Below, piece after piece: positions 32,101 through 56,380 of a stretch of 64,000 nucleotides of DNA; positions within the stretch are counted from its first letter, which is position 1, and each line of letters begins with the position of its first letter. Location of the stretch: NCBI GenBank assembly GCA_023853785.1, contig JAJIRX010000940.1, positions 1 through 64,000 of the forward strand, read 5' to 3'. Under the pieces are notes generated by a model, which had not been told where the DNA came from, did not search any database, and saw only the letters and a program-made list of their open reading frames with translations. The position numbers were made by a program, and so were the translations under genes. Source of the stretch: Psilocybe azurescens. Its lineage: Eukaryota > Basidiomycota > Agaricomycetes > Agaricales > Agrocybaceae.

Positions 32101-33059
32101 CGACAGCTTAACATCAAGGGTGCTTATTTAAATGGATACATTGAAGAGGAATTATATATGCGACAACCACCTGGATATAATGATGGATCAGGACGTGTCT
32201 GTCGACTTAGGCGCTCGTTGTATGGACTCAAACAAGCTGGAAATGTTTGGAACAAGGAATTTGATACAGCCATGAAGGACTTGGGATTCACTAGACTCAA
32301 ATCTGATTACTGCTGCTACAAACGACAAGAGGGTGAAGATTTTGAGATCCTACTTGTCTGGGTAGATGACATCCTATCTATTGCAAACTCAGATGCTCGG
32401 AACAATTTATTGGAGCAACAATTACGCCAGAAATTCGATATTAAATCGCTGGGACAACCCTCACTACTTCTAGGAATGAATGTTATACAGGATCATCATT
32501 CCAAAGTCATTTCCATTTCACAAACTGCCTACATTAATCAACTACTCAAGAAATTTGGTCTTGAGGATGTAAACCCAGTAACTACACCCATGGATCCAAA
32601 TGTGAAGCTCAACAATACAGACTTACTTCAAGGGAAATTGGACGAGCAGGGGGAGCAGCTAGAACAAGCCAGTGCTAGCTATGCAACACTTATAGGATCG
32701 CTTATGTATTTGGCAATTGGAACCCGGCCAGACATCGCATTTTCTGTCCAGAAACTCGCACAGTTCACCAAGAACCCTCAGAAACAGCATTGGACAGCTG
32801 TTAAACGAATATTTCGCTACCTTAAAGGTACTCGAGACTACAAACTCACCTATGGTCATGAAACCGAGGAAATTGACCAAGAATTAAATATTTACTGTGA
32901 TGCGGATTGGGCATCAGATAGAGACAGGAAATCTATCAGTGGATACATTATCAAGCTAGCTGGAGGTGCTGTCGCTTGGAGTGCAAAGAAACAGAGCACA
33001 ATAGCTCTTTCAACTGCAGAAGCAGAGTACACTGCTGGAGGTCTTTACACGGCCCCCCA

Positions 33060-33345
33060 TTTTTTGGTCGGACTCCGGTCGGACTCCGTCGGACTTTCTA
33101 TATTCAGAATGACAATTTTTCTGGTCTAGGACAGCTGAAATTTTCCGGTGAGATTCCGGTGAGATTCCGGTGAGATTCCGGTGAATGTCCAACGGACTGT
33201 CCAGAAGGACTGTCCACTGGAATAATGCCAAACCAGCAGTCAAAGTCCAATGGAAATGACCAGACAGGACCAACGGAAGTCCATCGGAATCCCACCGGAC
33301 ATGACCAACAGAAGTCCAATGGAAGTCCAATGGAAGTCCAACGGA
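33060..33345. repeat. Subterminal palindromic array of element A (left)
   Basis: Runs of GGACTCCGGTCGGACTCC, GAGATTCCGGT, AGTCCAATGGA and AGTCCAACGGA units with 9-11 bp spacing. Chance reading frames here are not genes. Confidence 0.85.
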
Positions 33346-33604
33346 CAGCAAGCAGAGGGTTATTCATATTAGTATTAATAAAAGAAAATATTAATGGAAA
33401 AATAAAACTTAGATCAATTAAAGAGTTATCACACATAGAACACAGTAGAGATTGTAGAGTCAATAGACTGATATATTTTTCTGAGTGTATGTGGTCCTTA
33501 TCAACAGAATTCTGTATTTTGTTCAGTCCGCAGGGTGAGCGGTCCGATGTGACACATTCAAAGTCACATGACTCAAATGTAACAACAACGTCGCAGCGTG
33601 ACAT

Positions 33605-33884
33605 GTTGATGCCACGTCGGTCCGTTGTTGATTCCGACACCCACTCTTTTTCCTTCCACCACCACCACTGCCTTGTCGGTCGGAGCCAGGCGAAAGCCAA
33701 CCCGACAGCGACAGAGGGCGAAACGACCGTGGCGGCCACACCGACAAGGAGCGACTGCGACAGCGACAACGAGGGCAGCGGACGAGGACCACGACGAGGA
33801 GCGGCAAGGGCAAGGGCAAGGACGGCAAGGGCAAGGGCAAGGGCGAGGGCGAGGGCGAGGCGGCGAGGCGAGGGTGAGGGCTAG
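33605..33884 (+). CDS. Low-complexity ORF of element A with HHHH-LVGRSQA motif
   Basis: Begins MLMPRRSVVDSDTHSFSF and carries HHHHCLVGRSQAKANPT. It then runs into an Asp/Arg/Gly/Ala-rich tail encoded by a GC-rich minisatellite that continues to about 34520. The motif and its DNA context (upstream TATTTTGTTCAGTCCGC at 33518) recur in element B on the opposite strand, so the beginning is probably a real conserved coding start. Beyond about 33800 any frame is open because of the repeat, so the true end is unknown. The function is unknown; a disordered, charged protein is likely. Confidence 0.4.
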
Positions 33885-34520
33885 GACGAGGACCGGCGAG
33901 AGCGAGGGCTGCGACGGCGGCGAGGATGGCCAGGGCGAGGGGCGAGAACGAGGACCACGAGAGCGAGGACCGCGAGAACGAGGACCAGCGACAGCGACAG
34001 CGAGGAGCGGCCAGGGCGAGGGCGAGGACTGTGACCGCTGACAGCGAGGACGGCCAGGGCGAGGGCGAGGACCGCTGACAGTGACAGCGAGGACGGCCAG
34101 GGTGAGGACGAGGACGCGACAGCGACAGTGAGGAACAGCCAGGGGCGAGGGATGAGGACCACGACCGCTGACGAGGACGGCCAGGGCGAGGACCGCGACA
34201 GCGACAGCGAGGACAGCCAGGGGCGAGGACAAGGACCGCGACCAGCGAGAGCGAGGGCAGCGACCGCGGCGGCGAGGATGGCCAGGGCGAGGGCAGGGAC
34301 GAGGACGGCGAGAACGAGGGCCAGCGACAGCAAGGGTGAGGACCCGCGACAGCAAGGGCAAGGACTTCGACAGCAAGGGCAAGGACCAGCGACAGCAAGG
34401 GCAAGGACCACGACTGCGACGGCAAGGACCACCAGGGCGAGGACGGCCAGGGCGAGGGCGAGGACGCGACGGCGAGGAGCGTGGGCGATGGACGGCAAGG
34501 GCAAGGGCGAGGACAACCCA
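33800..34520 (+). repeat. GC-rich minisatellite, purine-rich on + strand
   Basis: Repeats of GGCGAGGACGGCCAGGGCGA and GACAGCGACAGCGAGGAC type. The long Arg/Ala- and Pro/Ser-rich ORFs on both strands are products of the repeat. Confidence 0.85.
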
Positions 34521-34555
34521 CGTTGATAACACGGACAACGACACCACCAATGTAC

Positions 34556-36403
34556 CCTCCGCCCAGTACTTTACCATCCCCCACACAGTCCATATGGACT
34601 CCAGTGGACTCCAGTGGACTCCAGTGGACTCCAGTGGACTCCAGTGGACTCCACTGGACTTGCCTATATACTGAGTGTAAAAGGTAAACAGAGTCCAGTG
34701 GACTCCAGTGGATTCCACTGCACTTTAGTAGATCTTATACTATACATTGAATATGGACTAAAATAACTGTAGTCCACTGGAGTCCACTGGACTTGACACA
34801 GTAAATAAATTCAATCTTAACATAAATTCAGATTAGTGGAATAAAGTATATTAATAACTATTTAATACATTACTACATATCTACATGCGAGGGCCAAGAC
34901 AAAAGGAAGAAAAAAAGATAATAAAATAAAAAATAAAAAGGGGGAGCAGGAGCAGTACTTTACCATCGTACGTGTCGTCCATCGGGTCATCGGTACCGCG
35001 TCCGTATCCATCGCTGTCGCAGCCGCCGTACCCGTCCTTGTCGCTGTTGCAGCCGCCGTCCAGCGTCCTCGTCCTCGTCCTCGTCCCTGCCGTCCGCGTC
35101 GGTCCTCGTCCCTGCCGTCCGCGTCGGTCCTCGTCCCTGCCGTCCAGCGTCGGTCCTCGTCCCTGTCGCAGCAGCCGTCCGGCGTCCGCATCCCTCGTCC
35201 CTGTCGCAGCAGCCGTCCGGCGTCCATCCTCGTCCTCGTCCCTGCCGTCCCCGTCCCTGTCGTCCCCGTCCGTCCCCGTCCATGTCGTCGTCCTCGTCGC
35301 TGTCGTCCCCGTCCGTCCCTACGTCGCTGTCGCGTCCAGCGTCGTCGTCCCTGTCGCGTCCGCGTCGTCGTCCTGTCGCGTCCACGTCCTCGTCCCTGTC
35401 GCGTCCACGTCCGCGTCGTTGTCCCTGCCGTCCGCGTCGGTCCTCGTCCCTGTCGCAGCCGCCGTCTGCGTCCGCGTCGTCGTCCCTGTCGTCCCCCGTC
35501 CCTGCTCGCATCCACGTCGTCGTCCCTGTCGCGTCCACGTCCACATCGTTGTCGTCGTCGCTGTCAGCGTCCCTCGTCCCTGTCGCGTCCACGTCCGCGT
35601 CATCGTCTCGTCCTCGTCCTCGTCCCTGCCGTCCGCTGTCGGTCCTCGTCCCTGTCGCAGCCGCCGTCCGGCGTCCACGTCTACGTCCCTCGTCCTCGTC
35701 CTCAGTCGTCAACCTCTGTCGCGTCGGGTTGGCTGTCGCCTGGCTCCGACCGACGAGGTGGTGGTGGTGGTAGTCGGAAGAAAGGTTGGGGTCGTCCATT
35801 TGATGGTTGTCGTGCCGATCGGCCGATGCCGGGCACGTGTGAGTGTCACATGTTCTTGTGAAATTTGACCCCGCGGACTGAACAAAATACAAAATTGTAT
35901 CCATAGGGAGGCATTGCTCCTAGTGTATTTAACTATTGTTTCATTTGACTGTCATTTCATAGAGTTTATTTCCATTGATTTTAGTCTTTTATTTTTGCAA
36001 TTAATATTAATAACTAATGATCATACTTTGGATATTGTGTTAATTATTGCATCCAGTGGACTCCAGTGGATTCAACTGGACTCCACTGGACTCCACTGGA
36101 CTGTGCTAATAAATATATTATTTGTTGTTGTTCAGTGAATATTTAAGCCCCAGTCCAGTGGACTCCAGTGGACTCCAGTGGACTTGACTGGACTCATAAT
36201 CCACTGGACTGAGACTGGACTGAAAATTTGGCAGGAGTCCAGTGCGAGTCCAGTGGACTCCAGTGGACTGCAGTCCAGTTCCAGTCCAGTGGACTGGACA
36301 ATCTGTCAGCCAGTTTGGCTGGACAGAGAGTCCAGTGGAGTCCAGTGGAGTCCACTGGAGTCCACTGGAGTCCATATGGATTGTGTGGGGGAAAGGAAAG
36401 ACC
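34556..36403 (-). mobile_element. Element B: nested in A, 8-bp TSD
   Basis: Target duplication CCTCCGCC at 34556-34563 and 36396-36403; element 34564-36395 (1832 bp). Its + strand left end is CAGTACTTTAC and its right end read inward is GAGGTCTTTCC. Thereafter both ends match for about 30 bp (CCCCCACACA..TCCATATGGACTCC). Subterminal arrays use the variant TCCAGTGGACTCCAGTGGA (34600-34720 and 36055-36375). By the family polarity the element points to the minus strand, as does its internal ORF. Confidence 0.92.
34987..35904 (-). CDS. Low-complexity ORF of element B with HHHH-LVGRSQA motif
   Basis: About 300 codons open on the minus strand. The informative part is MDDPNLSSDYHHHHLVGRSQ followed by ATANPTRQR, matching element A. 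After this come several hundred residues of Asp, Arg, Gly, Thr and Glu encoded by a GGACGCGACAGGGACGAGGA-type minisatellite. The upstream TATTTTGTTCAGTCCGC motif (minus strand, starting near 35895) is shared with A. The start could be the internal ATG of MDDPNLSS. The role is unknown. Confidence 0.35.
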   Translation of the reverse strand: MDTILYFVQSAGSNFTRTCDTHTCPASADRHDNHQMDDPNLSSDYHHHHLVGRSQATANPTRQRLTTEDEDEGRRRGRRTAAATGTRTDSGRQGRGRGRDDDADVDATGTRDADSDDDNDVDVDATGTTTWMRAGTGDDRDDDADADGGCDRDEDRRGRQGQRRGRGRDRDEDVDATGRRRGRDRDDDAGRDSDVGTDGDDSDEDDDMDGDGRGRQGRGRQGRGRGWTPDGCCDRDEGCGRRTAAATGTRTDAGRQGRGPTRTAGTRTDADGRDEDEDEDAGRRLQQRQGRVRRLRQRWIRTRYR

Positions 36404-36486
36404 TCCCTCCGCCCCCCCTTTTTCTGTTCTTTCTATTTTTTTGTTTCTTTTTTATTATGTTTTTTTTTTTACCTGTATATAATCAT

Positions 36487-36700
36487 GTAGTATATAGTTT
36501 TTAATATATTATATTACATTGTCACATAAATTTAAGCCAAGATTAAAGTATTCCAGTTGGAATCCAATTGGATTCCATTCCATGTGAATTTAAAGTTGGA
36601 CTTAGTGAAATTCACAAAGTCAGATAATAATGTAGTATATAGTTTTCAATATATTATATTACATTGTTACATGAATTAAAGATAAGATTGAAGTATTATC
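36487..36700. repeat. Short direct duplication inside element A
   Basis: Two copies of about 60 bp (around 36487-36550 and 36632-36695) share GTAGTATATAGTTTT and ATATATTATATTACATTGT. They are separated by a palindromic-array remnant (TCCAGTTGGAATCCAATTGG). Confidence 0.65.
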
Positions 36701-36721
36701 CTAGTGACCTAGCTTCCTTAA

Positions 36722-36800
36722 TATGGCTCCCAAAGCTTCCAAGAACACTGCTACTGTCTCTAACTCCCCTCCCAAGTCTGCAATTAAACCAGTGACAGTC
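36722..36800 (+). pseudogene. Captured 5' end of the MAPKASK gene in element A
   Basis: Reads MAPKASKNTATVSNSPPK, then SAIKPVT, and runs into the palindromic array. The same start (MAPKASKNTATVPNSPPK), with the same 20-odd bp upstream, is at 49562 on the minus strand. The SAIKP segment matches 42600-42625 (minus). It is therefore an internally deleted copy of the gene carried by element F. Confidence 0.6.
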
Positions 36801-37095
36801 CACTGGACATCCACTGGACATCCACTGGACTCCACTGGACAGAGCACTCTTGGATCTGGTCTAATTAAGTGCTGAGAGTCCGGTGGAAGTCCACTGGAAG
36901 TCCAACGGAAGTCCAACGGACTGGACAGTCCGGCCAGTCCACCTGTTTTCTGTCTTGAAGTGACTTGACCGGACTTTGACCGGAATTTGGCCAGACTCTG
37001 ACTGGACTGGTACCGAATTTTGTCAAGTCCAATGGACTGTCCATTGGAATTGGCTGGGTCCGGTGAAAGTCCGTTGGAGTCCAACGGAAAATGGG
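36790..37095. repeat. Subterminal palindromic array of element A (right)
   Basis: AGTCCACTGGA and AGTCCAACGGA units. Homologous to 42285-42600 (element F) on the opposite strand; A keeps CpG at several places where F has TpG or CpA. Confidence 0.85.
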
Positions 37096-37446
37096 GGCAC
37101 TGTAAAGTACACCACTGCTGCTACTCACTGTGCAAAACAGGTACTCTGGCACAGAACATTATTCACAGAATTAGGAATTGATATTCCTACTACCTCAACC
37201 ATATTCTCAGACAACCAAGCAGCTGTCTCAATCGCTCACCACCCAGAATGTTATTCCAAAACCAAACACATTGACATCTCCCTCCACTTTCTTCGTGATC
37301 TTGTCCAGAATGGCACCCTCAATTTAGTTTATATCAATACCAGAGAAAATATAGCAGATCTATTCACCAAGGGACTACCTAGGACATTACACCAGGACCT
37401 CACATTCGAAATTGGAGTATTTTAGAGATGCCCGAGCAAGGGGGAG

Positions 37447-37657
37447 TGTTGGGAATGTGCTCGGACATTCCACAGTCCATCCTGTAGATATTATTTTATC
37501 TTATTAATTGTCTTACTAATGATCTCGGCCTTGGCTATGCCATACATAGAAATATTTAGACGCTGGTAGATTATTCTAGTTACAGTAGATACATGTATAT
37601 AAGTAGCTGCAAAGTCTACACAATAAAATTAAGAATTCCAAACATAAATTGTCAATA
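37447..37657 (+). repeat. Copia 3' LTR
   Basis: 211 bp, matching 28914-29126. Preceded by a polypurine tract and followed by the ATCTT target duplication. Confidence 0.92.
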
Positions 37658-37662
37658 ATCTT

Positions 37663-38285
37663 CAAGGACAAGGTCAAGAAATCATCCAGCCAAGTAAGTG
37701 CTTTGGTAACTGTATATTAATTCAATCCCATTCTTATGAGATTTCAAGAAATCTGTTCCTGTTACTACCCAGCCTATTTCCAATCAAAATGATTCGGCCC
37801 ACCTTCACATGTCTGGTAGAAATTTGACATCCAATATCTCTGATAAGTCAATACCCCAACCAATCTCTGATCCACCAGTATTGTCAACAGGAGATTCCGA
37901 TGTTGTGGATGATGATGCAGACATTGCTTGGCTCAATGCTGCTAAAAACAGCGAAGTTGTTTAGGCACTCAATGTCTGCATAGAATGCTGGAAGAGTGCA
38001 CGACCAGAAGCACACAAAAGATGTTTGCCTTTTTGCTATTGCTGGCATTTTCCTTTCCATTTGCCGCCATGGCCATGTTCTGGTGATCTGCTATATGATT
38101 CGTAGTGGTGAGCTGTAAGTCCACTTTTCTACACCTTAATTTATAACTTACACATTTTTGTAGTATGAAGTACCTGATCACAGTCATTAGCAAGCTTTTA
38201 GATTCCTATGGAACCAATATTGCTTTGGGCTATGATATCATGTGTGCCTTTGTAAAAATTTTGGCTAGTAGCTCTCTCAAGCAAC
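37663..38285 (+). pseudogene. KDZ transposase, central portion
   Basis: Continues the gene cut at 28913: VDIF joins KDKVKKSSSQ. Further on are RPEAHKRMFAFFAIAGIF (frame change needed), FLSICRHGHVLVICYMIRSG, and an intron (GTAAGTCC...TTGTAG, 38114-38163). Then come MKYLITVISKLLDSYGTN, IALGYDIMCAFVKILASSS and LKQ at 38284. The CRHG and GYDI(M/G)CAF motifs are diagnostic of the KDZ catalytic core. At CAAGCAAC (38278-38285) the gene is cut by element F. The frame resumes on the opposite strand at 42248. Confidence 0.85.
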
Positions 38286-38300
38286 AAGGTCTTTACACAG
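38278..38300 (+). mobile_element. Element F, GGTCTT end with its target duplication
   Basis: CAAGCAAC (38278-38285) followed by AAGGTCTTTACACAG, the GGTCTT-type terminus. It is cut after 15 bp by the 1045-bp LTR. The partner end is at 42257-42267 on the other side of the inversion. Confidence 0.8.
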
Positions 38301-40452: not shown

Positions 40453-41661
40453 GAGGTCTTTACTCTCACCCATATATTCCAGGTGGAGTCCACCAACTCC
40501 GGCATGGAGTTGGTGGACTCCACATGGAGTTTGGTGACCTTTTTGGCAGGTATCCCAGCCATTTAGGGTGGAGGCTCCACATGGAGTCCAGCCGGAATTG
40601 ACCCATCCTCCATGTGGACCAATGTGGAGGATGTGGAAACTCCATCTGGACTCCATGTGGAACTTCATTTGGAGTTCATGTGGAGTCCATATGGAGTTCC
40701 ACATCCTCTACATGGATTCTATTTGGATTTAACCTCAACTGAATAATCTTGGCCATCCCATATTTGTATTGATAAAGGTTGCCAAGTCCTTTGAACAAGT
40801 ATTGTAAAAAAACTTGGCAAACTTGGCAAAAACTAGTCAATTTATTGTTGATTCATATCATTATATCAACCATCAAACAAGTGATTATCTATGCCATAAA
40901 TGGTGTAATCTAGCTCCATTAAATGGTTCTGCTCCTAATCTTGTGGTTCTAGCAAAGACTAAAGATGGAACAGAATATTTTCAACAAGCATTTAATATAC
41001 AAGCATATGAACAATTAAATTCATTGTTAGATGGCTTTGATTCAATTCTAAAGCACATGAAATCTGGGAATTTTGATTGGTTTTTACATTCAATGCTGTT
41101 CTATCACACTCAAAATGTCATTCAAAAGCAGAAAAAAGAGAAAAGCCTCATCAAATTGATGATACTGAAGATGATGAAGAAGAAGAAAAGAATGAAAACT
41201 GTATTAAAAGACACTGGGATATAGAAGATGATGAGGCATAAGAGTGTAGAAAAAGAAGTGTATTCTAGTGTACCACTATAAATTATTTGATTTAATTTGA
41301 AGACTTTAAGAGCTTCATATAGACTTCTTACAAATAATCTATTTATAAGCTTGTAAGTCTACTACTCACTTAGATATAAAAGCTCCTTGACTATACTAAT
41401 AAAAAATAAAGAATATTAAGACCTATGTGGAGTTTATACAGAGTCCATGTGGAGTCCATGCAGAGTCTATATGGAGTCCAGGTGGACTCCATCTGGCCTC
41501 AAGTGGAATTGTATGGAGTCCAAGTGGACTCCACTTATCAAAGATGACTTTTGAACATTTACATATGTTCCAGGTGGACTCCATGTGGAGTCCACCACTT
41601 TGTATGGAGTTGGTGGACTCCATATGGAGTATATGGGTGGAGGTAAAGTACACTCAGCAAC
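40445..41661 (+). mobile_element. Element E: 1.2-kb member with a captured gene piece
   Basis: Target duplication TCAGCAAC at 40445-40452 and 41654-41661; element 40453-41653. Ends are GAGGTCTTTAC on the left and, read inward, GTGTACTTTAC on the right. The inverted match continues (CACCCATATA.TCCA..TGGAGTCCACCAACTCC) to about 48 bp. Subterminal arrays (40480-40740, 41420-41640) use the variant TCCATGTGGAGTCCACC. The interior carries a piece of the Cys-cluster gene type found in element G. It sits in the KDZ gene. Confidence 0.93.
40752..41225 (+). pseudogene. Piece of a KDZ-associated Cys-cluster (CxC) protein gene inside element E
   Basis: TSQFIVDSYHYINHQTSDYL, CHKWCNLAPLNGSAPNLVVL and FNIQAYEQLNSLLDGFDSIL, then KHMKSGNFDWFLHSMLFYHT, align residue for residue with the last exon of the gene at 43451-45734. 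A Lys-rich tail like that of the parent follows. There are stops upstream (about 40800), so it is a non-functional 3' fragment. It runs from the GGTCTT end toward the GTACTT end, as in element G. Confidence 0.75.
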
Positions 41662-42248
41662 CTCCGACTCATGGCTGGAAGGATGTTAGTTTCCACAAAA
41701 TGTTTATTCAGCAGGTATACATACCAAAGCTCTTTCAATTTTGTGAGTAATTCCATATACTCAACAGTAAAAAGTACTGCCTCGGGTTCTGTGCAAAGGT
41801 CCTTGAGATACTGTTTCTCCTCTTGTAGGTATTGTTTGTAATCAGCATTGGTAGTCTTGAGGCAAGCTGAGAGAGCAGCAAGGCTGTCTCCATCAATTCG
41901 TATCTTCTCAAGTGCTTGACAATAGTTCTGATATATGAAGTTTCCTGTTAATAGAATAAGTCCAAACTTGCAAGAAAGGGGGACTACATTACACACCTGA
42001 TGAAGCATGTTTATCGTCGTCATGAAATCAGAAGTGTTTATCAATCTGCTGGTGTCTGTGGTATGGAGTAGCAAGTCAAGTGACAGCTGCAAGCTCATTG
42101 GACTTGGCAAATGTTTGCTCGCATTCTTCAAAATCTTCAAGCCCTACACTGTCCATATACATGGGGTGCCAATGGCATTGACATGTCCAGTTATGTGCAT
42201 GACCATGAAAGGCTGGAACAATGCCCTGGAGGCACATACTAATTACAT
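41662..42248 (-). pseudogene. KDZ transposase, 3' half in inverted orientation
   Basis: From 42248 downward: HVISMCLQGIVPAFHGHAHN, WTCQCHWHPMYMDS, GLEDFEECEQTFAKSNELAA, an intron-containing stretch, and NFIYQNYCQALEKIRIDGDS. Then come LAALSACLKTTNADYKQYL, QEEKQYLKDLCTEPEAVLF and VEYMELLTKLKELW. The AFHGHAHNxxCQ and GLEDFExCE blocks are core KDZ motifs that normally follow GYDIxCAF. Their place directly after a CAAGCAAC duplication, on the other strand from the 5' half, is explained by an inversion between 38301 and 50901. Confidence 0.88.
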
Positions 42249-42610
42249 GTTGCTTGGTGTACTTTACAGTGCCCCCATATTCCATTGGACTCCAACAGAC
42301 TTTCACCAGACCCAGCCAATTCCAATGAACCTAGCTGGACAGTCCATTGGACATCCAATGAATTCCATTGGACTTGAAAAATTCTGCTACTAGTCCAGTC
42401 AGAGTCCAGCCAAATTCTGGTCAAAGTCCGGTCAAGTCATTTCAAGACAGAAAACAGGTGGACTGGCTGGACTGTCCAGTCCATTGGACTTCCAATGGAC
42501 TTCCAATGGACTTCCACTGGAATCTCAGAACTTAATTAGACCAGATCCAAGAGTGCTCTGTCCAGTGGAGTCCAGTGGATATCCAGTGGACTGTTATTGG
42601 TTTAATTGCA
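42249..42610 (-). mobile_element. Element F, GTACTT end with target duplication
   Basis: On the minus strand the element ends ...GGGGGCACTGTAAAGTACAC (to 42257) and is followed by CAAGCAAC (42256-42249), identical to 38278-38285. The array 42285-42600 has TCCAATGGACTT and TCCACTGGA units and is homologous to the right end of element A. The F interior (minus strand 49856 to 42257) contains the MAPKASK gene and, nested, element G. Confidence 0.85.
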
Positions 42611-42744
42611 GACTTTATTGAAGAAATCCAATTACCATATCCAGAGAGGTTTTCAACTGCTATCTACCATAGTCTACATATACATGTGCCATTTATTTAG
42701 CCTAGTCATCAACCAGTTGAAAAATCAGTACTTTACTGTCCCCC

Positions 42745-43240
42745 ATTGATTCCAGGTGGAATCCATCTTCATTCAGAATGTAGATGGATTCCAATGGATT
42801 CCATTTGGAATCCAACCGGTCCTGTTCAAGTCCAGCCAACATACATGGATTCCAGCTACATTCCAGTTCAGTTATATATTGATTCCAGGTTGATTCCAAT
42901 TAGTTAACTTCAACTGGAATGGATTAAAGTAACAAGAAAATGGAATCCAATTGGATTCTAGTTGGATTACAGATAGAGTAGAACTTTATTAAAATTGACA
43001 CTAGTCCTTGGATACAGATTCCACTTGGATTCCAACTATTCCAACTCTATTCCACATAAGTTGAACTTGATGAAATTAAATATAAAAGAACTGTTGGAAT
43101 GGATTCCAACTATATTCCAGTCATTCCATGTACATTCCATGAAAGTTGGACTTGATAAAATCATATGTGAATGAGTGTTGGAATGGAATCCAACTATATT
43201 CCAGCTATTCCACCTTCATTCCAAAAGGTTGAACTTGTTA
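42745..43240. repeat. Subterminal palindromic array of element G (GTACTT side)
   Basis: TGGATTCCAATGGATTCCA, GGAATCCAACTATATTCCAG and related units, thinning out toward 43240. Confidence 0.8.
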
Positions 43241-43450
43241 AAAATTAAATTAAACTACTATTTATATAGGTTCCACCTTTATTTCAGCCATTCCAATGAA
43301 ACTCTATAGCTGATTATGCTTAGTACAAAAATATAAATTAGACTTACCTAATAAGGGTTAGTATAAATCAATGCAAATAATATATAAATATTTTATTTGT
43401 ACACTAATATACACTTTTGTATATTTTCACTTATCAATCATCATTTCCAT

Positions 43451-45734
43451 CTACATTACAGTGCCTAATGGATTCTTCTTGTTCATTATCATCATCATTT
43501 TCTTCTTCTTCTTCCTCTCTTTTTTGTCAAGTTTTTCTTGTTGTTTTTTTCTTTTTCTTTTGTCTTTTGTATAATATGTTGAGTATGATAAAACAACATT
43601 GAATGCAAAAACCAGTTAAAGTTTCCAGATTTCATACGTTTAAGAATTGATTCAAAGCCACCAAGCCAAGAGTTTAATTGTTCACATGCTTGTGTATTAT
43701 AAGCTTGCTTATAATATATTTGCCCACGCTTATCAATGTCTACTATGACAAAATTTGGGGCTGAACCATTCAAGAGAGCAGGATTACAATATTTGCGACA
43801 CAAATAATCAGTTGTTCGATGGTTGATATAATGATAAGAATCCACAATAAATTGACTGGTTTTTTTCTATATTGCCCAACTTCCATTGCTAATACAAGTT
43901 TGAAGAACTTTGCAAGCTTTATCAATGCAAATATAAGCTGGTCAAGATGCTTCAGTTGGATACACTTTTGATAACCAGTTTAAGATTTTTGTTGGAGATT
44001 CAGATTTGTCAAACTTTGTCCATGCAATTACAACACCACATGGTGCACACATTGTTTCTACACAATAAAATCGACCAGGACTAAAGTAATGCAATTGTGG
44101 AACTTCAACATCATCATCATCATCATCATCATGTGGTCGCTGAACTCTTTCAACAGATGGTTGCCAAGGTGCATTTTCATTTGGTCTTTGTAGCATTCTT
44201 CGAACACCTGCCAAACCTGCTTGGCTATGGTTTAACTTGTATTTTTCCATTCATGTTAATGAGTGGTACAAGCTTCTGTATCTCTTACTTTTTCATTCTG
44301 GCAGCCATATACTCAGCAGCGAGCACCATAAGCATGTTGGTGGACTGCACAAAATACTCCACCTCTTGCATTTGTCAAATCAGCAGTACAGTTTTCATAA
44401 GCACAATGCTAAGCAAAAATTAATGTTATTCAACTTATTAGAGCACTATAAAGTTCACTTACAGTAGGTCCCATAACAATACCATCTAAAAAACCATTTT
44501 AATTGGTGCATAATTTGAGGTATCATTTGAATTGGCTTCATTATTTCTGTTTCTTATTGCTTGACGAGCTTCAGCTGTATCATTTGCTGATTGTATAGCA
44601 TTTTCACCTGTTAAAACAGGAACCTGTTCATGTTCATCCATAACAACAACAGCTGCTGGATCCTCATTTGCAAGAGGAACAGTATCAGCTGCATGTTTGT
44701 ACTTTTGGGTGCATTCTGAACATGAGTGTTGCATACCTGCATTGAGTATTTCTTCATTTCCAACAGCTTTAAAGGCTGCAGTTGTAACATCTTCAATATC
44801 AAGGCCATCAGACAATTCTAGGTTTATATTTGATCCACTTGCAACTGTTCGAATTGATTCCTGAATAAATGCATGCCATACCAATCGCCTTGTCATTGAT
44901 ATATTGGAATTGAGGTCAGAAATACAATCATTATAAAACTGTGTATAAGCTGCTGCAGAAGCATGAAATTGTACATTCCATTTAATACAGCCTTAGAAAA
45001 GCTGCAGTCCACCCATATTGATTGGCCAATTTTAAGAAAACATGCTGAATTTAAATAGCATTGTTTCCACTCTTGATCATCTTTAAAGTGTTCATGGTCT
45101 GCATAGTAACTTGTTTCACATTTTGGACACTTTCCAGCAAGTACAGGAATCTCTTCATAGATTGTATTGTCTTTTATCAATGTGACTAGAGGAACATCCT
45201 GTGGTTTACTTGTTTGAAGTAAAGCTCGCTTTTGACAATTGACATCCATACATACAGCAGTAATTGGGCAAATTATATGGATAGCTTTGATAGACTCATA
45301 AGAAATAGGCAATAGCTTTTGTTTAGACTTTCTTGTCTTTGAATATGGAGTAAACCCCAATAGCTTTGCAAACTCATCAAGCTTGTTGGATATTTCAAGT
45401 ACTTGCTGATTTTGTTGAGATGGAAAATCTCTTTCCTTGAACAAAGTTTTGGTACTATCTTTGAATCTTTGTAGCACTGCTCTAGATAAAGATTTCATCC
45501 ATCCAGTTGCTATAACTCTTCTTTCATCTGAAAAACAGGATTTTGCTGCCGAGCATGAAGAGTAAGTAATTCTGGATTTTCAGTCAATGTAAACAGTAGA
45601 GTGAGTACTGTAGCAAGTGATATATTTGGACCAAATGTCTGGCCAATAAATTCACTGAAAACATTGAAATTTATATCTGGAAATTGTGCAGATTGTGGAA
45701 TAGCAACTGCACCAGGGATAAAAGTGCTCCACAT
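43451..45734 (-). pseudogene. KDZ-associated Cys-cluster (CxC5/CxC6-like) protein
   Basis: Minus-strand pieces in order: MWSTFIPGAVAIPQSAQFPD, then FSEFIGQTFGPNISLATVLT, VCMDVNCQKRALL, and a CPKC pair in VPVLAGKCPKCETSYYADHE (read IPVLAGK here). Next are TRRLVWHAFIQESIRTVASG, QHSCSECTQKYK, CTADLTNARGGVFCAVHQHA, CQNEKV..TEACTTH and LHYFSPGRFYCVETMCAPCG. These are followed by YICIDKACKVLQTC, SQFIVDSYHYINHRTTDYLC and a Lys/Arg-rich C-terminus. The Cys pairs suggest zinc-binding clusters; such proteins are known as partners encoded near KDZ transposases. In-frame stops at 44313-44315 (TGA, context suggests CGA) and 44256-44258 (TAA, from CAA) look like C-to-T changes. Start 45734 is chosen over 45851 because the upstream part is an uncharacteristic hydrophobic stretch. 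Confidence 0.75.
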
Positions 45735-45999
45735 TAAAATCCAGAAAATAAAGTGAAATTGGCCAAAACAATAAAGTGGCAAAATAAGCAACCAGATCAA
45801 CAATGAGGCACAGAATAGTCCAAGTTTATAAGTTTCATATACAGGATTCATAGGTAAGAAGATTGAGTCATAACTAAAAGTACAAGAGTTATTCAGAGTG
45901 GTCAGTTTGAGTACAAAAAATAAATAAATAAATAAACAAAATAACTACTTTGTTTTCTTGTGACTTTGCTTCAAGACAGCCTTTGCTTTTCCTTTTCCC

Positions 46000-48670
46000 T
46001 TTTTCTGTGATTCTTCCTCTACTACTAAATGATCTCCATTTTCCAACCACTCTTGAAGATCTGATAAATAATATTGAGCCTTTTTACACCCCAGACTTTA
46101 ACATCATCTACTTCATCATCATCATTGTCAGAATTGACATTGTCGCTATTGTCCTTTGTATCAATATTGTGTTCTAGCCATTTGACCATCTCAGGATAGT
46201 TTGCAATCTTTTCAAAAGCAGCCTTGTAGCCTTTATGGAATGTTGACTTTCCAAAATAGAGGCTGACAACAGGGGTGTGCTTGGCAGTGAGGTCTTTTGG
46301 CCAAGTGCTATTAGCGATTTTGCTTTCAAGAAGTGCAAGAGCTCTAAGATAGTCTATATACTTTGCATAGGCTATACAGAGACCAGGCTTTTGATGCAAA
46401 CCATCAAACCTGGTTCAACTTTCAAAAGCTCTGCAAGTTGAGTATCTTCACTAGAGTTGTGTGAAGTCGAAGCAACAGGAACAGACACACTAGACTGAGT
46501 ATCGTGGCAAGAACTGGTTGACACAGAATGATGACCAGACTTAAGAGCGGATAAAGATGCCAGGACAGGGAGTCAGATAGAGGTCACTGTCTTCAAAGCT
46601 TGTCTTAATATCGCAATAATGAGTCAGAACTATATCTATTATTATTATTAGCTTGAACTTACCGCCAAAACATGGGTAACATGGTTATCGTTGTTGTCTT
46701 TCTGCCAAGTAAAGGCATCATTGAGTTCACTTAAAACCTTATAACGGCCTTGAGCAGACCAATCTCTGTCATCCAAGAGAAAGTAATGGTACTTGGGAAC
46801 TAAATAAACGTAAGAGGATTTTATTTGCAATCAGAGTTTCACTTACGACATGTAGGAGACAAACGCTCGGTGACCTTTTTAACCAATGATGATACACCAG
46901 TAATTTTGTCAATGTTCAGCACAGTAACAACATTTGTAGCCTTGGTAGTAACAATGTCGATATCGGCTGAGTTCTTGGTGGATACATAGAAGAAGATCTT
47001 GCCCCCAATGACTGGTATGTCAGGATGTGTATCCATGTCATTCCATACATCCTTTGCATCAGCAATGTTGAATGTATTGCCTTGTGCACGTCCCCGCAAG
47101 ATCCCACCTTTCTCACGTGAAGCCCCTTGGGCCTTGATTGGGGTGTCAGGACTGTTGTTTGCACTTTGCATAATAACATCTAATTAAATTTAATTGTATG
47201 TAAATATAATATAACAATAACAATAACAATAAATAATAATTTAAAATACCATCATCATGAGATGAGGTCTTCCCTTGACAACCTCTAGAGGGTGTACATG
47301 GGGCCTGAGTAAGGGTAGGAGACCCATGCTGGCCACGAGGATCACAAGAAACAGTGGGCTCCCTGTTTCCCTGATGTTGTGGGGCTGCAGTTGCATGAGA
47401 TGATAATAAGTTAGTCATGGTATCCTCAGACATACCTGATCTACCTATTTCCTTGTTTAGGGGGAGCAGTTACGTTCACAGCAGTGGTAGCAGCAGCAGC
47501 AGGGCCTTGGCTTTCATACCAGCCTTGGAGGTACTGGCACTGGCCTTGGTGCCATCGCCAGTGGTTGCGTTGGCGTTGGCGTCTTCACCATCCCTCGCTT
47601 TTGTTGCCGTCCTCATCTTTGTTGCTATTGTTGCCTTTGTCATCCTCGCCGTCGTGGTCCTCGTCCCCAGCGTTGTCACCCTGGCTGCTGTTGTTCTCAT
47701 CGTTGCCGCTTGTTGTTGTCCTCACTGTCCTTGTCCAGGTTGGTTTGGTTGTTGTCGTCTTGGTTGTTGTCGTCTTGGTTGTTGTCGTCAGCTTCGTCTG
47801 CCGTGCTGTCCATGTCTTCTTCTTGTCATCGGCGACCAACGGTGGACAGAGGGGGTGCCCCCTCAGTAGCTGGGGCCAGAGTGGTAAGGCGAGGGGTGGT
47901 GCTACAGACACGCGGTCCACCTCAAGCTTTTGTACAGTCCTGTAAATATAAATTAGAAATAGAATATAAAAAGAAGAAAGAAAGAAAAGAAAAGAAAAAA
48001 CAGAATAAAAAGAAAAGAAAAGAAAAAGAAAAAAAGAAAAGAAAAAAAGGAAAAAAAAGGAAAAGAAAAAAAAGGGGGGGGGGGAGGGTATGTACTTCAA
48101 CCGCTTCATGGGCATGCCTTTCGTGGTCGGGCGGCTGCATCCTCAGCTGCCTTTGCGGTGCTGGTTTTCCTATAGAGCAGTGTGAGCGGGGGTGAGTGTG
48201 AGTGGGGAGAAACATACCTGGGGGCCTTCCCCCCCTTTTCGTGCTCCTTTCCCCTCCCTGCGTTGCCTCCCTGCGGCTGCTTCTCCTCCTCCTCCTCCTC
48301 CTCCTTCTCCTCTTCTCCTGGGTCTGCCTGTTGTCGTTTGCACTTAGCTGGCTGCTGTGCAGTGGATGCGGCGTTCAATTCCTTCTGCTTGCGTTGTTCC
48401 CCAGCTGTGGAAACAGGGGGGAGACACACAGCGGTGCCCGGATCTTGTTGTCGACGCAGTAGAGCAGGTACCGTTGGGCATTGAGAGGGGAGGGTCAGTG
48501 TTGTTGATAGAGGCGGTGATGGTGGTTATGGATGGCGGCGGGGAGCAGAGAGGTGGTGGTGGTGGAAGGAAAGGGTGCGATGTGGCATCCAAACAGCATG
48601 CGAATGGTCTCGCTAGGCTCATGCTGAGAGAAGCCAGTACAATCAGTATGTATAATGCTAAATGTTATCG
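46000..48670 (-). CDS. Second gene region of element G, unknown product, multi-exon
   Basis: No family recognised. Protein-like pieces on the minus strand are MSEDTMTNLLSSHATAAPQH (47433), SANNSPDTPIKAQGASREKG (47165), NTFNIADAKDVWNDMDTHPD, IPVIGGKIFFYVSTKNSADI, VPKYHYFLLDDRDWSAQGRY (about 46800), and VVSLYFGKSTFHKGYKAAFE with KIANYPEMVKWLEHNID (about 46200). Upstream (47450-48670) low-complexity segments encode acidic Asn/Asp/Gln runs, a KEEEEEEEK-type run and AGEQRKQKELNAASTAQQ. Introns and the true start are not resolved. The orientation agrees with the element polarity, so it is probably element-encoded rather than host. Confidence 0.4.
47968..48087 (+). repeat. Polypurine tract (GAAA)n ending in a G run
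   Basis: About 120 bases almost entirely A and G, ending in a run of about a dozen G residues. Capable in principle of triplex (H-DNA) formation and a frequent assembly trouble spot. Confidence 0.85.
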
Positions 48671-48799
48671 TATATAAATGCCTATGTGGCTCAAGTGGTT
48701 GATTGTGTTGAATTTGGTGTACTTGGATGCTTGGGTTCAATTCTTGATCATGTGCTTTTTTCTATTATAAATAAAATAATATAAAATCAAATAAAAATA

Positions 48800-49225
48800 A
48801 TTTGATTGAATTCCAGTTGGATTCTGCATTATTCCGTGAGAATAGACCTATATTAGGCTATGTTTCATGGTATATATGACTATTCCAAGTGGATTCCAGC
48901 CAAATTGGCTGCTATATATGGTGTTCCAATTGGATTCCAGCTACATTGGCTGCTAGATGTTGGATTCCAACTGGATTCCATCTAACTTGGCTGCTAAATG
49001 TTGGATTCCAACTGGATTCCAACTGGATTACCTCAGTTCCATTGGACTGTAAATGGAATATTCCACTTGGAATGGGTAATTTAATGGATTCCAGTTAGAT
49101 TTCAATTGGAATCCATTGTGGCTCCTCCATATAAAATAGCACCAATATATGGTATGGAATTCCACATTGGAATCCATTGGAATCCATCTACATTCCAGAA
49201 TAAAGATGGATTCCACCTGGAATAG
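48800..49225. repeat. Subterminal palindromic array of element G (GGTCTT side)
   Basis: TTCCAACTGGATTCCAACTG, TTCCAGCTACATTGGCTGCT and related units. Confidence 0.8.
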
Positions 49226-49316
49226 GTGGGGGACAGTCAAGACCTCTGAAAAATACATACACATTCCCTCTTTTTGCTGCACGTTTCCTGTCAACAAATT
49301 TATTTTAGCAGCAAAT

Positions 49317-49562
49317 TCAGGAATATTTGATTTTTCTTACATGTTTTTGCTTGACTGGCTTGCCCTTGATACCAACAGATTCACCTTCACCAATCTCACC
49401 ATCAGCCTCCTCTTCTTCATCCCCAACAGCAACCTTCTTGGCAGGTGGTGCAGCAGAGGCATCAACAGCAGATGCAGCCCTGGCCTGCTTTCTGGTGCTT
49501 CTACAAGTCTTGGGAGGGGAGTTAGGGACAGTAGCAGTGTTCTTGGAAGCTTTGGGAGCCAT
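49317..49562 (-). CDS. MAPKASK protein, first exon of a gene carried by element F
   Basis: Reads MAPKASKNTATVPNSPPK, TCRSTRKQARAASAVDASAA, PPAKKVAVGDEEEEADGEIG and a basic end KPVKQKHV. The composition (basic, Ala/Pro-rich, acidic patch) resembles a nuclear or DNA-binding tail. It is followed by GTAAGA, a good splice donor. The rest of the gene is interrupted by element G; an SAIKP segment about 6.9 kb downstream (42600-42625) may be a later exon. A shortened copy lies in element A (36722). The family is unknown. Confidence 0.45.
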   Translation of the reverse strand: MAPKASKNTATVPNSPPKTCRSTRKQARAASAVDASAAPPAKKVAVGDEEEEADGEIGEGESVGIKGKPVKQKHVRKIKYS

Positions 49563-49856
49563 AGTAAGGAAGCTAGGTCACTAGGATGAGCTTAGATGGT
49601 GGTGGATGAAGGAAGAGATAACAGATCATGCAACTTGTCAAGTTGGGCAGACATTACATAAGCCCTTTCTCACTGGAAACTGCTGTTCTCAAAAATATTC
49701 CAAGTCCAACCTGACGGAAATTTCTGTTTTATGCTAACCCAGACATTCCAAGAGCTTGGAAATAGTAGATAACAAAGCTAACTACAACATGTATGTATAG
49801 GAAAGTAACTACACTACAAAATTGGACAGGGTGGGTGTGAAACAGAGGGCAATGGC

Positions 49857-50901: not shown

Positions 50902-50994
50902 TCCACCCAAAACTTGAGAAAAGAACCGTCCTCGGTTGATAGGCAACATGCGGAAATGAAGAGGAGGTTACTTTAGGTCTCGGGCAAACAATTT

Positions 50995-51401
50995 ACTGAT
51001 CGTCGTCCAAGGTATCGTCCATATCTTCATTGTTGTTCTGAGTGTATTCAAGATTTTCCACTATATTGTCCAGTTCAGCTCTAGGAATGACTGATCCATC
51101 TCGAGGGAAGTAGCGTAGAAGTCGGAAGGCAGCAACACCTTGAACCATTGGAGTACCATCAAGTTCCTTTAGCACATAAGAACCACCACGAGTTTGTCGA
51201 ATAACCTCATAAGGACCAAGATATCTGGGCTTGTGTTTGCGATTCATCTCTTTCTCTGACGTGAGTGTTGCGGACAAGGACTAGAGTTCTGGGCTGAAAT
51301 GCTGTCTGACGAATACGATGCACAAAGCGTTGTTCAAATATGGCCTTTGATTGCAGACGGGATTGTCGCAGGACTTCAGCAATATTAGCTAGGTCTTCAT
51401 C
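50995..51401 (-). pseudogene. Gypsy integrase C-terminal end
   Basis: Continues the integrase cut at 56381: QLMKR joins DEDLANIAEVLRQSRLQSKA. Then come FEQRFVHRIRQTAFQPRTLV, LVRNTHVRERD, a frame change near 51260, MNRKHKPRYLGPYEVIRQT, GGSYVLKELDGTPMVQGVAA and FRLLRYFPRDGSVI. The GPYEV..GGSYVLxELDG block is the usual C-terminal domain of fungal Gypsy integrases. Confidence 0.88.
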
Positions 51402-52524
51402 GCGCTGAAAGGGTGTAAACCATTCTGAGCTTACAATTCGTAGTGAGATACAGAGGCCCTTATTTTTGCGATTGTTATCTATAATAAACTAGTACATTAT
51501 ACTAGTGAAGGGTAGGAGATACGCCAGACTATTAGGCTTTGCGGCTTTACTTCCTAGTGGGCCAACAAGAGTAATAGACCTTACAAACTAACTAAGGTGT
51601 AGTGTGGCCTATTAATCAGTGCTACGAATCAAAGACTACCTTTAGTTTCCTACACAGCTATCAAAGGAGGTCTTTACACTCCCCACAGGTACTGATCGGA
51701 ATTTTATTTGGCAGTGTCCCTGCCAAATTAGCAGTAAAATGTCCAAATTTTTCCCGACCGATTCCGACTGGATTCCGATCGGAACCACCAGTACCGACCG
51801 GTTCCACTGTTAACAAGTCCAACCAAAATCCGATCGGAATCCGACCAGAATCCAACTGGAATCCAAGTGGAATTCATCAAATTTGAAACCCACTAGACCC
51901 AATTCCGAGTGGAATCCGAGTGGTACCAAGCGAACTATATTATGTCAGCATACTATTTACAGCTCACCAAGTAATAACACAAAAAGTATACATAGATCTC
52001 AACAGTTTGTGACAAATTTGGTATTGTTAGAATTGTAAAATTGAGGAGAATATGTTTATGTAATAGTTATATAAAATTAAAAATTTTCTAATAAAGAAAT
52101 ACCTATTTTCATATAAATCTGTGCTTATATAATCTAAATGTCTTGAATAAAATTAATCTTTGTATTCCATTAATTTCTATTATTGTAAAACTATTAATAT
52201 ATAGCTAACAGAGTGCTATTTTGTTGCAAAATGTAGTTTACAATATCTATATATATATAAATTTACAGTATTTTGTATATTGAACATGCTGACATAATAT
52301 TCTGATGATGGTGTAATTACAGATGCATTGCCCTCAATTTTCTGATCATTTTGATATATAATATGTGGGTATAGCTTCAGAGGAAGTGCCAGAATATATT
52401 ATTGGGTGTTGTAAAGAATGGTATATAATTCATAAAATGTTGGTAATACCACAAGCAATAATAGTGTAGTTGGTAATGTGTGTATAGAATTAATATATAC
52501 GGCTTTATGACCGCTGCTACGCTG

Positions 52525-52835
52525 TTGGGGGATTCGCTTCGCTCACCCCCTGTGCTTCATGGCAGGGTCAGCTTATGGGGGCTGCACCCCCAGACCTCGC
52601 TTTGTCGGCGCCCTGCGCCTCCTCATTGAAAGATAAATAATACCAATTACAATTATTATATCTTGGGGGAATGAGCTTCGCTCATCCCCCTTTTATTGTC
52701 ACTCCATGTCTCATGAAAATAATAATAATAGCAGTCACTCTTGGGGATGAGCTGCACTCATCCCCCTTGCTTCACACCTCCTAATATAATGTGTTGGAGG
52801 GGATGAGCACAGCTCACCCTCCCCTACTTCACAGC
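52525..52835. repeat. Series of GGGGATGAGC...GCTCATCCCC hairpins
   Basis: Four short inverted repeats: GGGGGATTCGCTTCGCTCA with CCCCC, GGGGGAATGAGCTTCGCTCA with TCCCCC, GGGGATGAGCTGCACTCATC with CCC, and GGGGATGAGCACAGCTCACC with CTCCCC. Each has a stem of about 9-11 bp and a 3-5 nt loop, embedded in AT-rich DNA. Confidence 0.85.
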
Positions 52836-52919
52836 CTGCCCTACAGCTTGTTGGGGTTGCACTCTTCCATCCCACTATGGAGCCACACAGCATCTTCATA
52901 GTCAGATTATATATACTCA

Positions 52920-54500
52920 GTCAATAACAGTGAACAAATACACAAATATTTATACACAGCACTCTATATTCTGTGTCCATTAAATTTCTTTTGCTTCAAC
53001 AATCTCAAACAAAATTTTTAAACCATATTAAACCCATTCCAACTAATCCACAGTACCTTTGCCACCATGTCTGTTTTAATATTCACACCCATATCCACTC
53101 CCAATCAATTATTATTCTACTTTGTATTTTATGCAATACTGCACTACTCATTTACTATCTATCACTCACCTCATAAGCACAGCACCATAGGTGCCATGCT
53201 ATGTTAAATTTCATAGCTTACACTTTCTCTTCACAACCAAAATATCTGTCTCTACACCCCACTACTTTAATTCTACAAAATTTAATCACATCAATCTACA
53301 CCCTATAGTACATTACAATCTAAAATCAATTTTCATAACATATCACAGAGCATTCACCCCACTCACCACTTCTGCTTCATCCTCAGGCCTACATCTTATC
53401 ACTGCTCCATCTCTCTATCTCACTATAGACATTTGTAGCACCTCCATACTCACTTTTTTTTTACTGACTGTCAATAACAGTGAACATTTCTGTCTCTATC
53501 TAACAATCTCACAAATCTCCAACCAAAATTTAAAACCATATTACACCCACTCCAACTAATCCACCACAACTTCACCCCTGTACTCAGTCAATCTACATCC
53601 CTGCCTATCACCACTCCCAATTATTTGCCAATTATTGCCTCTATTACTTATAATACTTGACTGCCCTTTCATTACCCACCAATATCTTGATATGCACAGC
53701 ACCTGCAGCGCTGTGCCATTTTAAATTTTATAACTTACACTTTTTTCTTCAAAATCCAAATAGCTATTCCCAGCCCCCACCACTTTGGTCCTGTAAATGA
53801 ATTAATCACAACAATCTATATCCTATAGTACATTAAAATTCAAATGTGAATTCCCACTCCTATTAGTTAACACACTCTTTAATTTTACCCACTACATGGG
53901 CAAAGCATACTCCAGCTTTATTCTCAAAAATTAATTTTACTACCTATACAGCACTGTATATCACCTATTTTCAATTACAAAGGCATGTCTCAGTTCTATC
54001 TTTCTATCCAAATCTTTATTTAAATAGCACCCACATATCCACAAATCCCCTGCTGCTATGTGTCAGTCATAAAGCTAAACAGCACAGTGCATCTGGGATT
54101 TGCTAAGTTGGTGCTCTACATCTCCATACCAAATATAATATCAATATTTCATCACTTCACCCTTTCTATGTCTAATGAAACACATTTGGGTATTTCTCTA
54201 CAAAAGCATGCCACCTTTAGCGCTATGTCCATGCTACTATACATTTCCACAATATTTCCCCACCCACACTTGAACAATTATTGTGTAGATTACTTGTAAT
54301 AACATTCTTTTGCATAGAGAACTGGAATATTCTACTATGCACAGCACCTGCAGCACTGTATCATTTTAAAATTTACAGATTACACTCTTCACAATTAAAA
54401 TTTAAAATAGCTGTCCCCTAACCTTTCCCATTGTAAAATTGTGTCCCAGTGCTATCTTTCTGTCTACACCTTTATTTAAACAGTTCCAACTATAGTTCAT
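52920..54500. repeat. Diverged long tandem repeats inside element H
   Basis: A palindromic GCACAGCACC..GGTGC/GCTGTGC segment followed by TTAAATTT..TAGCTTACAC-like sequence recurs at about 53177, 53694 and 54338. GTCAATAACAGTGAACA with downstream CCAACTAATCCAC recurs at about 52920 and 53466. Spacing is about 520-640 bp. Confidence 0.6.
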
Positions 54501-56380
54501 TTCATACTAACTTTTCCACTGTCCACAATGCCCCTGTTTTGATATTTATTTAGTTGTATTTATTACAGCCTTTTTAACTCTTTTATCCAATACATAGTCT
54601 CCATTACAAAGGTGTCAACCAACCACAATATCTGCAGGCAGAAATGTCCCATTCAAATAGTCTTTGATACAGATTTATTGATCCACTTGCTCATAGTGCA
54701 CTGTGCACTATGCATGCAAGAGTGTGCATATTTTTTTGTTTTCAGAGCCACCCAAAGCAGCTTCAATACAGCTGGGTATGGCTAATAGACACATTGAGGG
54801 TTCATTATTTAAGCACAGAATGTTTCCAGGCTTTGTGGCACCCATTTTGTTGTTTGCCATCAGCCACTGGTTGTTTGTTTCCAAAGGCCCGCGAGCGGCG
54901 GCCCCAAAACACAGCGGTCTGCTTAATAATAATTAGTCATGCTTTAGGTAAAATTAAATCTCCTTTTCGGAATTGCTTAGTCATTGAGCTCTCTTATATT
55001 ATAGATGAAGCTGTTGGTTCAATTCCTGTTGAGTGCATTTTATAATTTCGCATTTATTACAAATATCATGTGATCTAAATGATTACTTAAGAGCTTATAT
55101 AAGAAATATTATGTAATACCTGACTAAGCGAGACTATATCATGTGATTTCAATATATTATTTATAAGCTTATGTAAGCAACTATTATGTAATGCTGACTA
55201 AGCATTGTATTATACACTGATTAAGTACATTATGAGAAATTCTGACCAGATTCCGACCGGTTCGAGTGGGTCCGAGTGGATTCCGATCAGATTCTGACCG
55301 GTTCGACCAGATTCCGACCAGTTCTGATCGGATTCCGATCGATTCCAACCGGTTCCGATCAGTTCCGACTGGGTCCAAGTGGTTCCGACCGGTACCCGTG
55401 GGGCACTGTAAAGTACTGTATCAAAGCAACCCTAACCGAAGCTCCAAAGCGATTGCCTGCTCCATTGATCATACTATTAGTCCCATGCAAAGAAGAAACT
55501 CTTAAGAAATGACCTTGGCTCTTACAAGGGGTAACACCCACCAGTGTCTTACCAAGCGATCGCCAAGTGATGAAAACCTTATTAATTAGCAAAGCGATCA
55601 CTGTGTCCAGGCCTCACAAAGGCTGTTCACTAAATTAGGCAATCAACCGCTCGGGGATCAGGCATCGCTGTGCCACACAGGTGATCGCCCCTCAGACCGA
55701 ATGTATTGGCAATTGAAATCTTGTGTACAACTCAGCATATGGCGGTCTACTAGATCCGACTATAAAACTTGTAATTTGCAATGCAGCCAACGTGAGTGAG
55801 TGATCGCCCAGCCAGCAATCGCCACACAATACTAGAGGTAACTTGCCTCATGATAAGGGCACCTGCTGTTCCAGGGGTCCTAAACCAATAGCAACTGTGG
55901 TAACTAGGGACGACTGTCAGAGAAATCTGACTGTTTTCAGGACGTTGCCTATAGTAAACTAAGGACTGTGGACTAGTGTGCCCAGTTGCTTATAGGAACC
56001 AAGGATCTACTACATGTTAATACGGGTGATCGCTTATAGTGTTTGACAAAGTTTGAGTTTGGGTTTTTTAAAAAGAGAAACTGTTAAGTGTCCCGTGTAC
56101 ACTCGCCCCCCAAAAGCGATCCCCCCTGATATTGGTGATCACCCTCATATAAGAGAGATCACCCTTACTATTCAAGTGCCTTGTGTGTACTAGCCTGTAA
56201 AAGTGTTCTCTAGCTACTAGTGATCACCCCAGAGCGATCGTCTAAGTCTGTACTCTGCTAAACTAGTTATTGTAATAAGCCTTACGAGCTTACCCTCCCA
56301 GATCGAACTGATCAATATAAATATTTGATTGGGTGTTGTGTATTGGGCAATTACAAAGTGACCCCGCACTAAACATCTCA

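Follow-up and report, generated by a model that had tools for sequence, protein, structure and literature searches.

Among the described systems closest to the elements analysed here are the KDZ (Kyakuja-Dileera-Zisupton) transposons, which occur in fungi. Zisupton and Dileera have 8-bp target-site duplications (TSDs), and Kyakuja has 7-bp TSDs and CA..TG ends without a terminal inverted repeat (TIR) (PMC12730594). The Cryptococcus elements KDZ1–3 have TIRs of 139–241 bp, CxC1 and TSDs of 4–8 bp (PMC12810828). The meiosis gene poMSH4 of Pleurotus ostreatus is broken by a 6,792-bp insert that carries a 739-amino-acid CxC5/CxC6 open reading frame (ORF); insert-type sequence occurs there in several copies with no KDZ gene nearby, and its authors tied the insert to Copia retrotransposons (PMC7641404). 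The main text on this insert does not contain the terms 'inverted repeat' or 'target site duplication' (PMC7641404). Here we describe six elements in a 64,000-nucleotide window of the Psilocybe azurescens genome (contig C808, positions 1–64,000, of a 70.4-Mb assembly in 937 contigs), each with one left (L) and one right (R) end. These and related copies very probably form one lineage of DNA transposons in which ORF2, a CxC5/CxC6 protein, acts as the DDE transposase, would pair L with R ends and would move shortened copies in trans. We rate them as a new lineage of DDE transposons.

Polarised ends and target-site duplications

The L ends are of the GAGGTCTT type and the R ends of the GTACTT type (L followed by three digits, as in L015, denotes a genome locus). 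In the window, L tips read (G/A)AGGTCTT(T/G)(A/C)C, that of element F starting with AAGG, and R tips read GTGTACTTTAC or CAGTACTTTAC. Elements A, B, E, G and H each combine one L with one R end (5/5) between exact 8-bp TSDs, and F, which is split by an inversion, is the sixth of the group. An earlier note on this DNA had proposed six elements, each with one end of each class and 8-bp duplications; all of this was borne out, and the coordinates agree. The L motif matches 6 times in the window and the R motif 7 times; over 100 first-order Markov simulations based on the window's own base statistics, the corresponding means are 0.25 and 0.11. Five L/R pairs have a TSD, against 0 in all 100 simulations.

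The two kinds of tip are similar short imperfect inverted repeats in which position 3 is always G and positions 6–8 are CTT. They differ at positions 4–5, which are GT in L tips and TA in R tips, and this difference is kept in A, B, E, G and H. Inside most tips lies a C-rich run, followed by family-specific short repeats such as CCATATGG; the short C run previously described after most ends does follow most of them, but F's L end lacks it and E has ACCC. At subterminal positions 12–50, the L and R ends of the same element are alike in 36/39 (B), 33/40 (E) and 34/39 (G) columns and less alike in A (29/42) and H (27/41), and same-class ends from different families are alike in 19–30 of 40–47 columns. 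The argument that an inverted repeat would not keep two ends distinct therefore has to be narrowed: the insides of B, E and G do form a close inverted repeat, but GT and TA remain distinct in five elements. If the two tips serve different functions, a difference of this kind should persist even where the rest of the ends match. Polarity could also reflect shared ancestry only, with ends that differ by descent and have no functional role. Related copies inherit their ends, and the subterminal L and R sequences of A and H are no closer than same-class ends across families; those of B, E and G, however, are closer than that and yet keep GT apart from TA, and we regard descent alone as unlikely.

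Across the genome, searches for exact motifs found GAGGTCTTTAC in 542 places (62 for the reversed pattern), GTGTACTTTAC in 374 (47) and CAGTACTTTAC in 527 (68). Pairing was analysed on contigs C8–C199, using the first 100 of the 542 GAGGTCTTTAC places and 140 R places, namely those on contigs up to C199 among the first 100 places for each R pattern (52/374 GTGTACTTTAC and 88/527 CAGTACTTTAC); conservation of the tips in these sampled ends is by selection. Among adjacent facing ends no more than 8 kb apart, 68/69 pairs joined L with R and 1/69 joined R with R, whereas shuffling the labels 2000 times gave a mean of 33.6 L–R pairs and a maximum of 50. When R ends were restricted to the first variant, all facing pairs were L with R (40/40). 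The claim of fixed left and right ends thus holds in this sample, and same-class pairs, which in large numbers had been named as evidence against it, come to that one pair.

Both ends were read for 30 of these 40 pairs. An exact 8-bp duplication was present in 16/30, one with a single mismatch in 2/30 and a 9-bp duplication in 1/30, whereas 870 mismatched pairings yielded 0 exact duplications, 0 with at most one mismatch and 4 with two mismatches. Two further pairs outside the 30, in L001 and L006, also have exact duplications. Duplications of 9 bp occur in some elements (L061, L101 and L125+L063).

Boundaries were examined at reconstructed empty sites. For F, the flanks were fused with one TSD copy, with the inverted right flank turned back. 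This join is collinear and gap-free with the KDZ paralogue L015 over 432 bp, aligns with L016 over 431 bp (0 gaps) and with L025 over 433 columns (5 gaps), and regains a complete KDZ domain (155.8 bits). Because the join aligns gap-free and regains the domain, F's inversion and 8-bp duplication are both supported. The join across E aligns with L015, L016 and L025 over 396–403 columns with 2–6 gaps, and the flanks of H adjoin in L006 with a 7-bp overlap. Removing A regains a reading frame (STAEAEYTAATHCAKQ), which by eye we take to be that of a Copia RNase H. The empty-site check suggested earlier thereby confirms the boundaries of E, F and H in DNA and those of A by reading frame.

Gene content and a candidate transposase

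Four full-length units have the gene order L, ORF1, ORF2, R, with both genes running from L to R: G in the window, L127 (C8:64584–70956, TSD CATCACCC), L061 (contig C552, 9-bp duplication CCTCCACAT) and L125+L063 (C699:143505–150766, of whose left duplication the stretch read includes four bases). A full-length copy with a transposase flanked by an L and an R end, which the earlier note had proposed to look for, has its counterpart in these ORF1+ORF2 units, in so far as the predicted transposase role of ORF2 holds. The ORF1 pieces are mutually similar by blastp (G–L061, 6e-75; G–L127 and G–L063, 1e-6 to 5e-25), and a single relative turned up, in Psilocybe cyanescens (89% identity, covering 74% of the query). 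This conserved second gene lies at 46025–47183 in the window and at 2107–3313 in L127. Proteins related to ORF2 are named from Laccaria, Amanita, Flammula, Galerina, Pluteus, Cyathus and other mushrooms. G and E had been said to hold KDZ-'associated' sequence, and they do: a CxC5 domain in G and a C-terminal fragment of the protein in E.

As a query, the C-terminal piece of ORF2 has at least 169 matches in the genome, and PF18718 has 98; the ORF2 C-terminal and KDZ match counts are lower bounds, with 150 candidates scored. Among the ten best C-terminal matches, leaving aside L052, which has only 222 bp downstream, all nine with 1.5 kb downstream (one of them G) have an R end 586–777 bp beyond the matched stretch (9/9), and in L051, L053 and L059 a second end lies further out than the R end. 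Of the 40 pairs with the first R variant, 5 hold a listed ORF2 C-terminal match, which runs from L to R in 5/5. The CxC5-centred loci L041–L050, which reach just 1.5 kb, contain no ends (10/10). In the 1.2-kb element E, ORF2 was found as a 3′ piece only, and short elements of this kind are most likely deletion derivatives.

The unannotated C-terminal half of the CxC5/CxC6 protein has conserved D, D and E residues; of 221 proteins, 107 have the E motif and 86 of these are kept in alignment A3, so that the E in 86/86 is by selection. This half is predicted to adopt an RNase-H/DDE fold (pLDDT 84), and re-scoring by VIA-align places ISCth4, retroviral integrases and Tn5 as the nearest structures. 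ORF2 has 9–14% identity to these proteins and, unlike them, carries a CxC6 zinc cluster, placed after the first D and before the strand that follows. ISCth4 is presumably an IS256 member. Because the C-terminal half combines conserved D, D and E with a DDE-type predicted fold, the CxC5/CxC6 'cargo' is most likely the transposase itself. The elements share with DDE DNA transposons TSDs of fixed length (mostly 8 bp, a few 9) with precise boundaries, TIRs that are short and imperfect, and, as a prediction, an RNase-H fold with D, D and E. Together, these features make a strong case that the elements work like DDE transposons.

From the ends, their pairing and duplications, the content and polarity of the genes, the D, D and E residues and the predicted fold, we propose the following mechanism. 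A complete element of about 6.4–7.3 kb would consist of an L end, ORF1, ORF2 and an R end. The ORF2 protein would bind both tips, pairing one L with one R, remove the element by a cut-out or copy-out route, and insert it with a stagger of 8 bp or, in some cases, 9 bp. Shorter copies, namely E and others of 1–2.5 kb, would be moved in trans. Ac/Ds and other transposons with unequal ends require one left and one right end; the present elements would resemble Ac/Ds in working with one of each and have a different transposase.

Several observations weigh against a DDE transposase encoded by ORF2 acting on paired L and R ends. No clear TSD was seen in 10/30 sampled pairs, and one more was ambiguous; 3 of the 10 join ends from two subfamilies and are therefore probably not single elements. 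VIA-align takes its candidates from Foldseek and only re-scores them, and Foldseek by itself gave nothing at E ≤ 0.001, its top hit being Mos1 (E 0.031); Pfam DDE families matched 0/37 ORF2 members. G, the window's own full-length copy, is decayed and broken at several points. No L end was found within about 7.3 kb upstream of the R end in the C793 copy, or in the stretches read of C220 and C236. ORF2 proteins viewed by eye (P0014, P0076 and others) have a hydrophobic, signal- or membrane-like N terminus, which is unusual for a nuclear enzyme such as a transposase.

Relation to KDZ and hAT transposons

The earlier note took the cargo of G and E to favour a KDZ transposase, and the elements might accordingly be non-autonomous passengers of that enzyme, with CxC5/CxC6 as accessory cargo. 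The Pfam domain names do derive from KDZ, KDZ genes are abundant in the genome (at least 170 matches to PF18758), and Cryptococcus KDZ elements have 8-bp or 4–8-bp TSDs (PMC12810828). By eye, ORF2 and KDZ also have the order D-x2-C, H-x3-H, E in common, the first two of which are paired in the best hhalign alignment to the KDZ profile, which is not significant (P 0.18, probability 0.3%). However, L and R ends were absent from the surroundings of KDZ genes in 30 loci of 2.6–3.8 kb (0/30) and in three stretches of 10–14 kb (0/3), no KDZ gene was found inside the elements examined, and the fold predicted for ORF2 is itself of the DDE type. E and F have inserted into a KDZ locus, which is their host. 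Intact KDZ genes of Pleurotus are reported to go with CxC2 and never with CxC5/CxC6 (PMC7641404). KDZ as the source of the transposase is not supported, and we consider the passenger explanation decidedly improbable.

A role for ORF2 as the transposase is compatible with a second possibility, that ORF2 belongs to the KDZ superfamily as a divergent branch and is not a separate superfamily. The shared motif order, the Pfam naming and the 8-bp TSD of Zisupton and Dileera (PMC12730594) point that way. Zinc-cluster domains in the transposase and occurrence in fungi are further features in common with KDZ. Conversely, ORF2 has no detectable KDZ domain (PF18758 in 0/37 members at E ≤ 1), and its hhalign comparison is the non-significant one given above. 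Among further differences, the KDZ genes examined have no L or R ends nearby, and the 8-bp TSDs and GAGG/GTAC-type ends are unlike the 7-bp TSDs and CA..TG ends of Kyakuja. We lean modestly against this placement. An 8-bp TSD with short imperfect inverted repeats would equally suit hAT elements, but no hAT domain occurs among the Pfam matches of the 37 ORF2 members or of the subset of window and locus ORFs scanned, and a hAT origin is hardly credible.

The reading of ORF2 as a DDE transposase can be carried further: mushroom CxC5/CxC6 proteins would be a DDE superfamily of their own and not KDZ accessories, the L-plus-R rule would be enforced through the conserved GT or TA dinucleotide at tip positions 4–5, and an element of the same kind would lie behind the sporeless Pleurotus mutation that growers use. 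We hold this extension tentatively, judging it slightly more apt to fail than to stand. The poMSH4 insert (about 6.8 kb, with a CxC5/CxC6 ORF) is like the present elements in size and content, and this analogy suggests that it may be a member of the present lineage. In the titles, abstract openings and passages of the open-access literature consulted, no paper identifies CxC5/CxC6 proteins as transposases or describes these ends. A sizeable group of fungal proteins filed in databases just as 'associated with KDZ' would gain a likely transposase role, and ends and target duplications are now at hand for annotating many copies of CxC5/CxC6 elements. The Pleurotus ostreatus meiosis-gene insertion receives a testable explanation, and the dinucleotide that separates L from R in otherwise similar ends makes the pairing rule directly testable.

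Arrangement of the insertions in the window

Table 1 Elements, genes and host sequence in the window
Feature	Position	Strand	Details
Element A (L to R)	33038..37112	+	4075 bp; TSD CACTGCTG at 33030 and 37113; host is a Copia-like reading frame
Element B, nested in A	34564..36405	-	1842 bp; R at 34564, L at 36405; TSD CCTCCGCC
Element F, L end AAGGTCTTTAC	38286..38296	+	TSD CAAGCAAC at 38278
Element E (L to R)	40453..41653	+	1201 bp; TSD TCAGCAAC
C-terminal fragment of CxC5/CxC6 protein in E	40829..41182	+	67% identity to G's copy
Part of KDZ gene hit by F	42019..42234	-	host of insertion, outside the element; E in same locus
Element F, R end, now inverted	42257..42267	+	preceded by reverse complement of TSD CAAGCAAC at 42249
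Element G	42726..49246	-	6521 bp; R at 42726, L at 49246; TSD TGAAAAAT; two-gene element, frames broken
ORF2 piece of G, VDSYHY and CEQLN motifs	43495..43866	-	CEQLN holds the conserved E; sequence reading
ORF2 piece of G, start of catalytic half (predicted; CVET...AW)	43942..44250	-	sequence reading
ORF2 piece of G, CxC5 domain (PF18718)	44893..45579	-	E value 5.4e-23
ORF1 piece b of G	46025..46414	-	blastp to L061, L127, L063 pieces
ORF1 piece a of G	46839..47183	-	blastp to L061, L127, L063 pieces
Element H (L to R)	51667..55418	+	3752 bp; TSD TATCAAAG

The insertions at 32023–55426 are nested, with A in the Copia-like frame, B in A, and F and E in the KDZ locus; G sits in the right part of F, and there is one inversion besides. 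The flanks of G match L064 at 4822–5140 and 1–126 (window 42257–49546), and sequence comparison suggests that F may be related to the L064 element and have lost part of its interior.

The seventh R-type motif of the window, at 34953 inside B, is like B's R end over the first 15 bases only (29/60). CAGTACTTTAC ends are often doubled, two copies lying on one strand at a spacing of about 350 bp, with 15 neighbours no more than 1.5 kb apart among the 88 places; the motifs at 34564 and 34953 are the instance in the window, the inner match extending over about 15 bases only.

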